Part shown: piece after piece, positions 1 to 4,417 of the stretch | Numbering within the stretch: the first letter of the stretch is position 1 | Layout of the letters: each line of letters starts with the position of its first letter | NCBI GenBank assembly: GCA_030446465.1 | Contig: JAUJNI010000001.1 | Location: 605,859-669,858, forward strand | Length of the DNA: 64,000 bases | Direction: 5' to 3' | Origin: Actinomycetota bacterium | GTDB lineage: Bacteria > Actinomycetota > CADDZG01 > WHSQ01 | Notes under the pieces: generated by a model | Told to the model about the DNA's origin: nothing | The model's input: the letters and a program-made list of their open reading frames with translations, nothing else | The model's database searches: none | Position numbers and translations under genes: made by a program

Positions 1-723
1 GTCGCCCATCAGCGCGTCGATGACGTCCCTCCACGTATAGCTGAGGATGCCGATCGTCAGGTGCGCCGACTCGCGCTCGACCGTCTCGGCGCCATGCAGA
101 AAGCCCCTGGGAATGTAGAGGCAGTCGCCCGGCTTGAGCTCGACGTCGATCTGGGCCTCGCCGGGATCGGTGATCTTTCCTTCCCGCTTTTGGTGGGCCA
201 GGGGGTAGTGGATCGCCTCGCCGTAGACGGCCCAGTGCTTGACCCCCGATACCTGCAGCACGAAGACATCGTGCGTGTCGTAGTGAATGTCCAACCCGCG
301 CGACGATGGGGGAGTGAGGTAGACGTTGACCTGCACGGGATGCGTGAGGGCCAGCTCCAGCTCGCGACAGAAGTGCGATAGGGGGCTCCAGTATCGGTGC
401 AGGGCTTGAAGAACGATCGTGGCGCCCTGCGAGAAGTGCTCGTAGACACGCCCAGGATCGATGACGTCATCGAGGTTGCGGGACTGCAAGCGAGCGCGCT
501 TCGTGTAGGTCGAAGGTGCGAGCGTGGCGCCGTCTTTGACCAACCGCAGGGCGGGGAACCGCAGCCCTCTCTCGGCCAGCAAGCTGTCGATGTCCTCGAG
601 GGTCAGGACATCGGCGAAGGCATCCGTGCCCGAGCCCGGCCGGTGCAGGGGGGCCTGGCCCCAGTAGTGATCGAGGAAGCCGCCGACGTCTCCGACGCAG
701 CGCTCGAAGGCTGTCGTGCCCAT
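1..723 (-). CDS. JmjC-domain (cupin) oxygenase, 3' end beyond window
   Basis: The minus-strand frame is open from an ATG at 723 to the window edge (241 codons, C-terminus missing). The protein has a jelly-roll JmjC core: an HYDTHDVFVLQ segment around residues 147-157 supplies the HxD metal ligands (H147, D149), and a GDCLYIPRGFLH segment supplies the distal His (H210). These are the Fe(II)/2-oxoglutarate ligands of the bacterial ribosomal-oxygenase-like JmjC proteins, which hydroxylate protein side chains. It lies 18 nt downstream of the Asp/Thr-rich small gene on the same strand, so the two are probably co-transcribed. The substrate is unknown; that the neighbour peptide is the substrate is inference. 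Family members are usually near 390-400 aa, so roughly 150 residues lie outside the window. Confidence 0.85.
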   Translation of the reverse strand, partial: MGTTAFERCVGDVGGFLDHYWGQAPLHRPGSGTDAFADVLTLEDIDSLLAERGLRFPALRLVKDGATLAPSTYTKRARLQSRNLDDVIDPGRVYEHFSQGATIVLQALHRYWSPLSHFCRELELALTHPVQVNVYLTPPSSRGLDIHYDTHDVFVLQVSGVKHWAVYGEAIHYPLAHQKREGKITDPGEAQIDVELKPGDCLYIPRGFLHGAETVERESAHLTIGILSYTWRDVIDALMGD

Positions 724-741
724 CTGACGCTCGTCTATCGG

Positions 742-933
742 TTAGCCGGCGTCGGTCGTGTCGTCGTCGGTGTCCGTGGTGTCGGTGTCGGTGCTGTCTG
801 TGGTGTCGGTGTCGCTGCCGGTGTCGTCCTTCGCATCAGTGGTGTCGTCGTCATCGTCGGCCACGGCGACCGGCCTGCCGTCTTCTCGCCACGTCGTGCG
901 GATTTGCTCGTCGGTGAGAGTCGGATCGGTCAT
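742..933 (-). CDS. 63-aa Asp/Thr-rich small protein, candidate peptide substrate of the adjacent JmjC enzyme
   Basis: An ATG at 933 is preceded by a perfect AGGAGG seven bases upstream, much better than most starts in this window, so the gene is very likely real. Residues 1-25 are ordinary in composition (LTDEQIRTTWREDG). Residues 26-63 are almost only Asp and Thr (about 18 D and 13 T out of 38). This leader-plus-repetitive-tail layout, with a modifying-type oxygenase gene 18 nt downstream, resembles a RiPP precursor, with Asp residues as candidate beta-hydroxylation sites. That assignment is inference: no cleavage site, transporter or protease is visible inside the window. It could also be a plain acidic low-complexity protein. 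Confidence 0.7.
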   Translation of the reverse strand: MTDPTLTDEQIRTTWREDGRPVAVADDDDDTTDAKDDTGSDTDTTDSTDTDTTDTDDDTTDAG

Positions 934-1082
934 TACGAACCTCCTGTGGGGCGGACGGGTCAGAGGATGCTACGACCTGCGCTTCATCCGCGCACGATCC
1001 GGTCACCCTCGACAGCTCCAACATCGCATGGTCCTATACGACTACGACGTAGCCGGCTGCTGGAGAACGACGGGAGGCGCAG
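934..1082. promoter_or_regulatory. Divergent intergenic region between the acidic peptide gene and the P450 gene
   Basis: These 149 bp separate two divergently read genes and should carry both promoters. The minus-strand side ends in the AGGAGG of the small peptide gene (about 941-946). No convincing -35/-10 pair or operator palindrome can be read with confidence. Confidence 0.35.
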
Positions 1083-2129
1083 GTGGCGCAGGACTTCGCA
1101 GCGACGATGAGCCCGGCGGGCGAGGCCGTGACACAGCTGATCTTCGATCCCATTGCTCGTGCGAACCCCTATCCGGCGTACGAGCGCATGCGCGCGCACG
1201 ACGCCGTTCACCTGTCGAACCTCGGGATGTGGTTCGTGACCTCCTACGAGGAGTGCGCTCGTCTCATGCGCGACCAGAGGCTTCCTCGCCACTTTGGCAA
1301 CTCGTGGGAGCTTCGAGCGGAGCTGAATGACTCCGTCGGTCGCAAGTGGTACGAGCATCAGTCTCGATGGATGCTGTGGCTTGATCCTCCGGACCACGGA
1401 AGAATTCGCAGCCTCGTGAACAAGGCCTTCACCCCTCGCTATGTGGAGAAGCTCAGGGGAAGGGTGCAAGAGGTCGTCGACGCCTTGATCGACGAGATCC
1501 TGGGGCGCCGGGGAGGTGGACTTGCTCGCACAGCTCGCCTTCCCGCTGCCCATCACGGTCATCGGCGACATGTTGGGGATCCCACAGGAAGACCGCAGGG
1601 ACTTCCGCACCCGAACCGTGCACATCGCACAGACCCTCGAACCCCTCCCGCCCAAGGAGGTTCAGGACCGGGCGGATGAGGCGACGGCGGAGTTCGAGTC
1701 TTACTTCCGCGACCTGATCGATGCACGCCGCAAGAAACCAGGTGACGACTTGTTCTCCGCGCTGATCGAGGCAGAGTACAGTCCGGTTCAGTTGGCGACA
1801 CCTCGAGTTGCGAACGCTCCGATCGAGTCCGCAGGGCACACGATCGAGCCGGGTCAGGGAGTCATAGCCGTTGTGGTGGGGCAAATCGTGATCCGTCTCG
1901 CTTCGAGGAACCCGATGCTCTGAACCTCCGCCGCCCTGATCCGGCGCCGCTGAGCTTCGGCGGAGGAGCCCACTTCTGCCTCGGTGCCTCCCTCGCACGC
2001 ATGGAGGGGGCCGTCGTCTTCCAGTCCATGGCCCGTCGTCTTCCGAAGATGGCGCTCACTGAGGACGAGCCGCGCTGGAGGGCGGGCTTGAACCTCCGGG
2101 GCCTCGAGTCGCTAGAGGTAACTGTCTAG
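1083..2129 (+). pseudogene. Cytochrome P450, frameshifted and internally deleted
   Basis: The N-terminal part reads in one frame from GTG 1083 (FDPIARANPYPAYERMR, then WLDPPDHGRIRSLVNKAFTP, the P450 C-helix region). Near 1505 the reading shifts to a second frame (FPLPITVIGDMLGIP). Around 1779 the sequence jumps from SALIEAEYS straight to PVQLATPRVA, so the I-helix (AGxET) and the K-helix ExxR are missing. After 1923 it returns to the first frame for the heme-binding FGGGAHFCLGASLAR and the usual C-terminus, ending at 2129. Without the I-helix and ExxR the product cannot be a working P450. The gene diverges from the peptide/JmjC pair, so it may once have belonged to the same pathway. Confidence 0.9.
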
Positions 2130-2176: not shown

Positions 2177-2320
2177 TTAGGCGATGCTGGTGTGGCCCTC
2201 GGGTGGCGTCGATGGCTCCGTTGCACCCATGGTGAATGCCGGGATGAATACGTGAGCCAAGGGGCCTATAGCAACGGCATAGGCGATTGTTCCGATGCCG
2301 ACGGATCCTCCTAGCGCCCA
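2177..2320 (-). pseudogene. C-terminal fragment of a YczE-like membrane protein
   Basis: The minus-strand frame encodes LGGSVGIGTIAYAVAIGPLAHVF near its end. This resembles the last membrane segment of YczE/YitT-like integral membrane proteins, with their GGxVGxGT...IGPxxH signature. Only about 45 residues are recognisable; the upstream part of the frame reads through the end of the adjacent IS3-like element. The gene was therefore most likely cut by that insertion. The short length and lack of a credible start argue that it is non-functional. Confidence 0.55.
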
Positions 2321-2331
2321 TCCCCTTGACC

Positions 2332-2760
2332 TGACCCCCTGAAATCGGTCCACCGCGAATGAGAGTCTTGATGCCTCTGAAGAGGCGGAAGGAGGTCTCT
2401 TGCGAGGCACACACCCGATCAGGTGGTGCGCAATAAGGGAGGCCGATCGTCGACGGAGGACATCGGTGAGGTCAGCAAGGCCTCGAGATCTCCGAGCAGC
2501 CTATCACCGGTGGCGCACCCGATGCGGCCTCAGGCCGACGACGCAAAGCACCTCAAGGAACTCGCGAGAACATCCGAATCGTTGCCGACAAGGAGCGAGA
2601 TCGACGCCCCCCAAGGCGAGGAGCCCGGCGGCCGGCTCGCCAAGACCGCTTCCAGACGGACTGCCGCATAGTCGGTCAGCAGGAAGCGCCGCCCGGTGAC
2701 GCATCGACGACGAGGCTCCACTATGACGATCGCAAGGCGTGGTTGCTGATGGTTCCTGGG
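2332..2760 (+). mobile_element. IS3-family insertion sequence relic (end plus degenerate orfA)
   Basis: At 2332-2354 lies a sequence like an IS3-family terminal repeat (TGACCCCCTGAAATCGG...). An ATG at 2371 opens a short MPLKRRKE frame. Scattered over three frames are the pieces of an IS3 OrfA: DQVVR, READR, DIGEVSKA, AYHRWR, ADDAKHLKELAR and RIVADKE, in the right order, ending near 2600. Weak traces of the OrfB start (CRIVGQQ) follow. Multiple frameshifts make it inactive. The right end was not found. The call rests on motif order rather than a database match. Confidence 0.65.
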
Positions 2761-3628
2761 ACGCCAACCCAAGGTCGTTGTCGTAACGGGATCCACCGCA
2801 AGAAAAACAACACCGCCACTCCGACGGCGATGGCCTCGACTTCCAGTTCGATGGACACGTCCTGCTCAACATCGTCGACGCTGAGGCCCTGGTGAAGGAC
2901 ATCCCAACCGTCGCCGTTGATGGCATCGTCGCCCGAGAGCGGCTTCCACCATCACCGGGGCGTGGGAGCTTTGTCGAACCCGTAGAGAGCGAGTTCGACA
3001 CCTTGTGTAGAGCTGCACGAGTCGGCCGCACAGCAGTCTCGGCTGGCGCTCTTGCATCGCTAGGGGGAATCGGAAGTAGCAGAGGCACGGTCGATGAGCA
3101 TCCCCAGGAGTGGAGCAGAGTCCTTACCACTATGGAACGACCGTCCCTGCCGGTCAAGGACTGCGGAGCCATCCTGGGCAGCGTCAGAGGGATCACACTA
3201 GGGAGGAGTCCGTCGGACGCATCGACGCGAGTGCGGCGGGGCGATGGCAGCCCTGGTCCGAAAGGATCAGATGAAAGCCCGCGAGGACGTTGTTGTTAGG
3301 GTGATAGCCGTCCGAGGAGTCCACCATGCTGGCCCCCGCCGCGACAGCCCACGAGCGGGAATCGGAAGTAGCAGACCTCACCGCCTTTCGTTGGCATGAG
3401 GACTCCTGGGACGGCACACTACCAGATCCATCCCGACGGAGTTACGCCACGAGGGTGATAGCCGTGGAGTCACCATGCTGGCCCCCGCCGAGCAACGCCA
3501 GCCCCTATTTTTCCGGCCCCAGGCTGGACGGACCAGATCCATCCCGACTCACCCGGCGGCGGGCGAGTCGCTATTTTTCGAGACATCTCACCCGGCGGCG
3601 GCGAGTCGCTTTCGAGGGCGGCAGCTAA
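2761..3628. other. Gene-free decayed stretch with short duplicated segments
   Basis: No frame here has a recognisable family or a convincing ribosome-binding site. A frame at 2892-3299 is open but has no recognisable domain. The right part (3065-3610) is built from repeated short segments, listed separately. The stretch lies between an IS relic and a headless gene, consistent with eroded mobile-element territory. Confidence 0.5.
3065..3610. repeat. Patchwork of short direct repeats
   Basis: Four different segments each occur twice. A 19-nt piece starting GGGAATCGG is at 3065-3083 and 3357-3375. A piece starting AGGGTGATAGCCGT and ending GGCCCCCGCCG is at 3298-3341 and, five bases shorter, at 3452-3490. 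ACCAGATCCATCCCGAC is at 3421-3437 and 3532-3548. TCACCCGGCGGCGGGCGAG... is at 3549-3572 and, one base shorter, at 3588-3610. The order suggests a tandem duplication of roughly 100-150 bp followed by small deletions. Confidence 0.75.
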
Positions 3629-4417
3629 TCGCGGTCCAACATCTTCGTCGCGGATCTGGAGACGGGTGCGACGAAACAGTTGACGCGGGGCGACGGTGTG
3701 AAGGAGCACCCGTCGTGGTCGCCTGACGGGCGCAGGATAGTCGCAGACTGCGGTCCCCAGCTATGCATCATGAGGAGCGACGGGGAGGGCACGCCCCGGC
3801 GAATCACCGCTAATGACTATAGGGAGAATGAACCCGAATGGGCACCCGACGGCAGCAGAATCGTGTTCGAGAGCGAGCGCGGGATCATGACGATCAAGCC
3901 CGACGGCACCGGGTTGCGGCGCCTAACGGCGGGCAGGGCTGACACCGTCCCGATATGGTCACCGGACTCCGCGCGCATCGTCTTCACTCGGAACTCCTCA
4001 CAGGGGTACGCGCACCTCTTCGGCATCCGTCGGGATGGTGAAGATCTCATCCAGTTGACGCACGGACAAGCATCTGACGGCGAGGCAGAGTGGGCGCCGG
4101 ATGGGTCGCAGCTCGTGTTCGTGCGTTCCGAGCCCTCCGATGATGGTCGGTCTTACTGCGCGTACATTTCCACGATCGACCTGGAGGGCTTGCGTGTGCA
4201 GAAACTGACGGACTGTCGGCCCCACGGGGGCTACGCGTCCTACCATCCTGTGTGGTCTCCCGATGGTCACAGAATTGGTGTCGTGCTGACCCACGTCCCC
4301 GCCGCGGGTCTTAGGCCCAGGGACGACGTCTTCTCTATGGCACCCGACGGGTCCGACCGGCGGAACCTCACGCGTGAGCTCGAGGAGGACGTCAACTACT
4401 TCGGTCTCGACTGGTGA
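3629..4417 (+). pseudogene. TolB/PD40-type beta-propeller protein lacking its N-terminus
   Basis: The frame contains repeated PD40 blades: SWSPDGRRIV, EWAPDGSRIVFES, IWSPDSARIVFT, EWAPDGSQLVFV and VWSPDGHRIGV. These are typical of WD40-like TolB propeller proteins, which are usually exported or periplasmic. In-frame sequence starts right after a stop at 3626-3628 and is already mid-blade (SNIFVADLETGATKQL), with no signal peptide and no good start; the first possible start is a TTG at 3680. The 5' end therefore appears to be lost at the border of the repeat patch. A cytoplasmic product from the TTG cannot be excluded. Confidence 0.7.

Follow-up and report, generated by a model that had tools for sequence, protein, structure and literature searches.

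The locus and its genes

Is the Asp/Thr-rich small protein encoded at this locus the substrate of the JmjC oxygenase that follows it, and, if so, which of its side chains would be oxidized? The original prediction, made from sequence alone, claimed a 63-aa gene with a perfect AGGAGG and a 38-residue tail of about 80% Asp and Thr, followed 18 nt later by a JmjC enzyme with HxD...H metal ligands. Both claims held in the window, by which we mean the whole 64-kb stretch of DNA analyzed (G000:C4:605859-669858; positions in the extended locus, L002, equal window position + 15859). The peptide ORF begins with ATG and encodes MTDPTLTDEQIRTTWREDGRPVAVADDDDDTTDAKDDTGSDTDTTDSTDTDTTDTDDDTTDAG, and its tail contains 18 Asp and 13 Thr (31 of 38 residues, 82%). 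No second 38-aa stretch with at least 22 Asp plus Thr was found in any other of the six frames across the window. The JmjC ORF starts at 723(-), 18 nt past the peptide stop, and extension of the contig completed the gene (L002:15380-16582, equivalent to G000:C4:605379-606581), which encodes 400 aa. The extension also revealed a third gene, encoding a Suc_Fer-like protein and overlapping with its start the end of the JmjC gene, which the original prediction had overlooked and which lies outside the window (Table 1). The peptide had no match in Pfam, NCBIfam, PHROGs, or PADLOC. A defence or phage connection of the cassette was considered and rejected.

Table 1. Coordinates of the features of the peptide-JmjC cassette (window positions unless otherwise stated)
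Feature	Position	Strand	Evidence
Small precursor-like protein (63 aa) with a head and an Asp/Thr tail	742..933	minus	ORF list and translation; recurs 5' of JmjC homologues
AGGAGG ribosome-binding site, perfect	940..945	minus	Sequence; 6-nt spacer to peptide ATG
Recognition-like head motif, residues 6-13, LTDEQIRT	895..918	minus	99 distinct homologous peptides; core regex in 0/6,576 control ORFs
Asp/Thr tail (residues 26-63), presumed to be the modified core	745..858	minus	Composition; unique in window
JmjC_2 (ROX/NO66-type) oxygenase, N-terminal 241 aa	1..723	minus	Gene runs off the left edge of the window
Codons of metal ligands H147 and D149 (HxD)	277..285	minus	Invariant, 61 homologues
Codon of K162, presumed 2-oxoglutarate lysine, 15 residues after H147	238..240	minus	Invariant, 61 homologues
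Codon of metal ligand H210	94..96	minus	Invariant, 61 homologues
Suc_Fer-like ferredoxin gene	L002:14488-15387, outside window		Overlaps 3' end of JmjC gene

Divergent from the peptide gene, window positions 1083-2129 (+) give a cytochrome P450-like reading (start ...FDPIARANPYPAYERMR..., heme loop FGGGAHFCLGASLAR near 1957-2000). The reading is split over several frames, with part of its middle missing, and is, therefore, probably a pseudogene; Pfam made no call on the pieces. Positions 2200-3650, ~1.4 kb without a convincing gene, carry short near-identical direct repeats (3062/3354 and 3322/3471) and appear to be decayed or rearranged DNA. Positions 3680-4417 (+) encode a WD40-like PD40 beta-propeller protein (TolB-like; E 6.9e-26).

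The peptide and the JmjC enzyme are a recurrent gene pair

JmjC homologues were sampled from whole genomes of the phylum, where 52 of 396 genomes were positive at E <= 1e-40, and from named genomes, where at least 556 related stretches were found and the 80 best were kept. The 113 loci, in which five locus pairs represent one organism present in both collections, yielded 99 distinct peptides and span many Actinomycetota families as well as Chloroflexota (L044, L046) and Acidobacteriota (L107). An Asp-rich small ORF was located 5' of the JmjC gene in 83 of the 113 loci under a strict screen, and in 104 under a second screen based on head motif and tail composition. Most of the nine exceptions are cut contigs or variants. 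Five have fewer than 300 bases upstream (L011, L020, L055, L091, L106), L058 retains the end of an Asp-rich tail within its 322 upstream bases, L010 encodes a variant peptide (MALDDDITTSTPGG...) with GADGG repeats, and the tail of L090 is in a disturbed frame; only L105 had no clear peptide upstream of its JmjC gene.

Since these 113 homologues were chosen by similarity, a second set was drawn by PF08007 alone. The peptide was present at every member with a family-profile score >400 bits and sufficient upstream DNA, and L121/L157 and L122/L155 (~360 bits) had GADGG-type tails. No recognizable partner peptide was found upstream of the distant PF08007 members L117 and L124, or of L119. Within the sampled loci, ORFs with Asp-rich ends made up 51 of the 224 just upstream of JmjC, compared with 4 of 6,759 elsewhere, and two of those four were the same peptides read in longer frames. 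The head motif, expressed as L.[DE].[DEQ][IM].[TS] within the first 30 residues, was present in 77 of the 99 peptides and in none of 6,576 control ORFs. The Asp-rich tail plays no part in this count, but these same peptides were the source of the motif and had themselves been picked with a looser form of it.

The pairing of an Asp-rich peptide gene with a JmjC gene is thus a recurrent feature across genomes and meets the RiPP criterion of a short precursor gene beside its modifying enzyme. Given how consistent the pairing is, we consider it very likely that the enzyme modifies the neighboring peptide, in the absence of any mass or activity data. An alternative is that the tail is simply acidic, binds Ca(II), or is of low complexity, and that nothing but operon proximity links it to JmjC. 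Its DxDGxD-like repeats do resemble calcium-binding loops. However, the pairing recurs in ~100 loci over many families where no neighbor other than Suc_Fer is conserved, and the head motif shows a conservation of its own, apart from the tail, which together make this explanation very unlikely.

A conserved head precedes a variable tail

Across the 99 distinct peptides, the head follows the consensus L(90%)-x-D(96%)-[DE]-[DE]-[IM]-x-T(81%). The tails range from 31 to 142 aa (median 66), contain a median of 19 Asp (9 to 43), and consist of 27% Asp and 2.2% Glu, with no Cys and almost no aromatic residues. The disparity between Asp and Glu indicates that charge alone is not what is selected. Several tail classes were distinguished: DGDATDGDA/ADGTDADG types; Asp/Thr types, including that of the window; GADGG tails (EGPADGGATPGQHDGGADGG), built from ~20-aa repeats in Micromonospora, Actinoplanes, Agromyces, and Herbiconiux; and GTYGPRDA repeats in L013/L037. 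The acidobacterial peptide (L107), located ~480-130 bases before the JmjC match, has a head followed by a twin-arginine-like signal (RRSFLGATGALLIG) and then GGDPDKKK repeats; hence, export of the product after modification is possible in that lineage.

When close species were compared, tails gained and lost residues in frame and heads hardly ever did, though head letters vary too. A conserved N-terminal recognition-like region joined to a variable C-terminal core meets a further RiPP criterion. On the enzyme tree (FastTree), the GADGG class required 4 changes, compared with a mean of 17.7 after shuffling, and all 19 GADGG rows fell inside one clade of 22 rows, the remaining three lacking a screen-called peptide. 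Near-copies inflate this clustering. The distribution of the class on the tree indicates that enzyme and tail evolve together.

The enzyme has an intact active site and a ribosomal oxygenase fold

The 400-aa enzyme contains a JmjC_2 domain (PF08007; Pfam E 2.9e-27) in a NO66-type fold with a C-terminal winged helix. H147, D149, H210, and K162 were invariant across 61 homologues. A lysine 15 residues after the first metal-binding His is also the spacing seen in FIH and NO66. By sequence, the closest solved proteins were NO66 (2.7e-45), MINA53 (4.3e-39), YcfD (4.5e-17), and Bacillus subtilis YxbC. The AlphaFold model of a homologue with 48% identity (L036; pLDDT 93.6) aligned with NO66 along its full length (E 1.5e-28, TM 0.70), making NO66 the best match in the PDB by both sequence and fold. 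Membership of the JmjC_2/ribosomal-oxygenase family is therefore supported by the JmjC_2 domain, the HxD...H ligands, the 2-oxoglutarate lysine, and the ROX architecture. DSSP assigned the C-terminal domain of this model as E328-331, E335-341, E344-349, H350-361, H367-370, and H376-388. Profile comparison (hhalign) of the winged helix with PqqD-type RREs of the same phylum detected no sequence relation (probability <2%). RREs diverge strongly in sequence, and winged helices are common.

Given this fold, the peptide could instead be a partner, i.e., an acidic regulator, chaperone, or iron donor, of an enzyme acting on a ribosomal protein in the manner of NO66, MINA53, and YcfD, and acidic tails could conceivably mimic RNA or carry iron. 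Two observations count against this. A short conserved head joined to tails of differing sequence, repeat unit, and length that nonetheless track the enzyme is a leader-core pattern rather than that of a fitted binding partner. Furthermore, the cassette is patchy, occurring in the 52 of 396 phylum genomes noted above, whereas ribosomal proteins are universal. We regard the partner explanation as unlikely and retain the substrate reading.

The third gene and the wider neighborhood

The protein encoded at L002:14488-15387 is a Suc_Fer protein (PF06999, E 2.3e-20). Suc_Fer was found 3' of JmjC in 83 of 109 testable loci; its absence from the other 26, among them those of Micromonosporaceae and some others, indicates it is not essential. 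The best PDB match of its model, the Aquifex thioredoxin-like [2Fe-2S] ferredoxin, had a probability of 1.00 but an E value of only 0.024; domain and fold both support a thioredoxin-like ferredoxin. In Aim32/Apd1, the cluster motif is CX8C...HX3H (PMC8482512). The cassette proteins keep CX8C, but HX3D replaces HX3H in 79 of 83, and identity as a bis-histidinyl ferredoxin was rejected on the grounds that the second His is Asp. An unusual [2Fe-2S] ligand set with Asp as the fourth ligand is a possibility inferred from these motifs. Separately, three Nocardioides loci (L072, L093, L098) carry an extra Suc_Fer-like gene 5' of JmjC.

Neighborhood clustering of the loci found no conserved protease, transporter or exporter, second modifying enzyme, or larger biosynthetic cluster; beyond local synteny, only JmjC and Suc_Fer were conserved. 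The lack of a conserved exporter or protease suggests that the product does not belong among the classical secreted RiPPs, the L107 lineage being a possible exception.

A proposed model for iterative modification of the peptide

Our preferred reading, to which we assign a probability of ~0.62, is a RiPP-like, leader-guided cassette in which the JmjC enzyme carries out beta-hydroxylation of Asp at many positions. The pairing, the conserved head, tails that vary with the enzyme tree, the intact active site, and the folds are shown; the chemistry and the role of the product are inferred. The small protein would be the substrate of the adjacent enzyme, with the acidic head (L-x-D-D-D-I-x-T) serving as a recognition sequence, probably held by the C-terminal winged helix, a step for which there are no binding data. 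In the repetitive tail, many Asp residues would then be oxidized one after another, with the beta carbon as the likeliest site, and 3-hydroxyaspartate would be abundant in the resulting peptide. Where present, the linked thioredoxin-like [2Fe-2S] ferredoxin would probably keep the enzyme iron as Fe(II) over repeated turnovers. The predicted product is a multidentate anionic peptide, probably a metal binder that is retained inside the cell or close to it. The expectation that a polyhydroxyaspartate chain would bind hard metal ions is itself inferred and is the weakest step of the model. Against the model as a whole, there are no product or mass data, and unlike many RiPPs, the cassette has no conserved protease or exporter.

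Asp is inferred as the target because no other reactive side chain occurs in every tail class, Glu is avoided, and relatives of the enzyme hydroxylate the beta carbon. NO66, MINA53, YcfD, and FIH are all beta-carbon hydroxylases. The point against Asp is that GADGG tails contain only ~13% of it, hence another residue could be the target. It is accordingly possible that the peptide is a substrate for other chemistry: Thr, Ser, or His could be hydroxylated, Asp could be oxidized further, or the chain could be cleaved or cross-linked at Asp-Gly. In favor of such chemistry, many tails have frequent Thr and Ser, the HDGG repeats contain His, and a graspetide oxygenase pair takes Asp through beta-hydroxylation to aminomalonic acid (cited in PMC13097080). 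On the other side, GADGG tails have little Thr, most DG tails lack His, and no reactive side chain but Asp is shared by every class. Beta-hydroxylation of Asp remains the reading we favor.

A bolder version of this reading can be framed, which we consider possible but less likely than not. It holds that the cassette makes a widespread bacterial, ribosomally encoded polymer dense in 3-hydroxyaspartate, in which one JmjC enzyme, engaging a short acidic head through its winged helix, iterates to ~40 Asp per chain, and that the product is a resident metal binder rather than a secreted antibiotic.

The observation behind the original prediction is real and stronger than first stated. Both of the recurrence checks it proposed were positive, with the Asp-rich small ORF recurring beside JmjC homologues (the 104 of 113 loci plus the unselected PF08007 matches) and the head conserved beside a variable tail in the 99 distinct peptides; the leftward extension, intended for proteases and transporters, instead gave Suc_Fer, and neither protease nor exporter is conserved. 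Its claim of a leader-tail substrate is supported by the pairing and by the head/tail pattern, the modification itself not being shown. For its claim that the tail is hydroxylated, the enzyme has all the residues for 2OG/Fe(II) hydroxylation and its nearest solved relatives are side-chain hydroxylases, but hydroxylation, and Asp as its target, remain inferences, as does a metal- or mineral-binding product.

JmjC oxygenases of animals are known as ribosomal-protein hydroxylases and histone-modifying enzymes. Here, a dedicated, gene-encoded peptide partner accompanies the fold in many bacterial genomes, with related stretches numbering at least 556, providing a simple two-gene system in which to study substrate choice and repeated modification by JmjC enzymes, and a precursor class that can be searched for with a short motif. 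Hydroxyaspartate binds iron strongly and serves as a ligand in non-ribosomal siderophores; if the model is true, the cassette may offer a gene-encoded source of it.

Comparison with known systems

The nearest precedent is a study of fish and algal JmjC PF08007 proteins that carry RRE-like domains (Bregman et al., November 2025, PMC12710340), one sentence of which states that bacterial homologues at ~30% identity occur in RiPP-like genomic contexts. Like the cassette enzyme, those proteins combine a JmjC_2 domain with a C-terminal domain of order beta3-alpha3. We found no mention there, however, of a precursor peptide, a motif, an Asp-rich tail, or a ferredoxin partner, all of which the cassette has. 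Save for this passing sentence, the claim that no system with exactly this pair had been described held in the literature searched, where no description of the precursor family, the head motif, or the three-gene cassette was found; subscription papers and preprints were mostly not covered, and an earlier mention is not excluded. If the model is true, that one-sentence hint of PF08007 proteins carrying RiPP recognition elements gains substance.

More distant relatives occur on plasmids. In Streptomyces clavuligerus, a 33%-identical PF08007-like relative is preceded by a 48-aa Asp/Pro-rich peptide (L159:3757-3903; WP_009999493.1, hypothetical) of sequence MDDKKTSLEPDEIEV...DNDPSDPPIAIADPDPFDPVI, with a similar head (LEPDEIEV) and with an S9 peptidase and an ABC transporter nearby. 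This peptide is likely a secreted RiPP relative, and its occurrence upstream of a JmjC relative widens the family and supports the precursor reading. Two distant cupin/JmjC relatives (L160, L161) lie in contexts that appear RiPP-like, one in a Streptomyces YcaO/TfuA cluster and the other beside an ABC transporter on a 7.9-kb Escherichia coli plasmid, where the end of a Cys/Gly-rich ORF is directly upstream.

Among characterized enzymes, NO66, MINA53, and YcfD/RoxA share the fold, the metal and 2-oxoglutarate residues, and the JmjC plus winged-helix architecture. Their targets are His or Arg residues of ribosomal proteins, whereas the cassette encodes a dedicated peptide next door; from this gene context, we infer that the peptide, rather than a ribosomal protein, is the substrate. 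Apd1/Aim32 share with the cassette Suc_Fer the PF06999 domain, CX8C, and the thioredoxin-like [2Fe-2S] ferredoxin fold, but have HX3H where nearly all cassette proteins have HX3D.

The JmjC/cupin proteins BpmG, PbsQ, and BipG hydroxylate ornithine of biphenomycin precursors (PMC12257519, PMC12707348), BpmG adding +16 Da to Orn of its RiPP precursor (PMC12257519). As in the cassette, a JmjC/cupin-type 2OG oxygenase has the side chain of a ribosomal precursor peptide as its known or proposed target. In biphenomycin, however, this is a late tailoring step on Orn in a FHAFRF core, in a cluster with an MNIO, arginase, B12-radical SAM, and TldD protease, whereas JmjC is the sole conserved modifying enzyme of the cassette and the core is Asp-rich. 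A biphenomycin-type tailoring cluster was ruled out since MNIO, arginase, and B12-radical SAM are not conserved beside the cassette.

Beta-hydroxylation of Asp in ribosomal peptides, as proposed here, is already known chemistry. SmaO of a graspetide cluster is an Asp beta-hydroxylase (cited in PMC13097080). CinX of cinnamycin is likewise a RiPP Asp beta-hydroxylase. Enzymes of the SmaO/CinX type modify few sites within a larger pathway, whereas the cassette presents up to 43 Asp per tail to one conserved enzyme.
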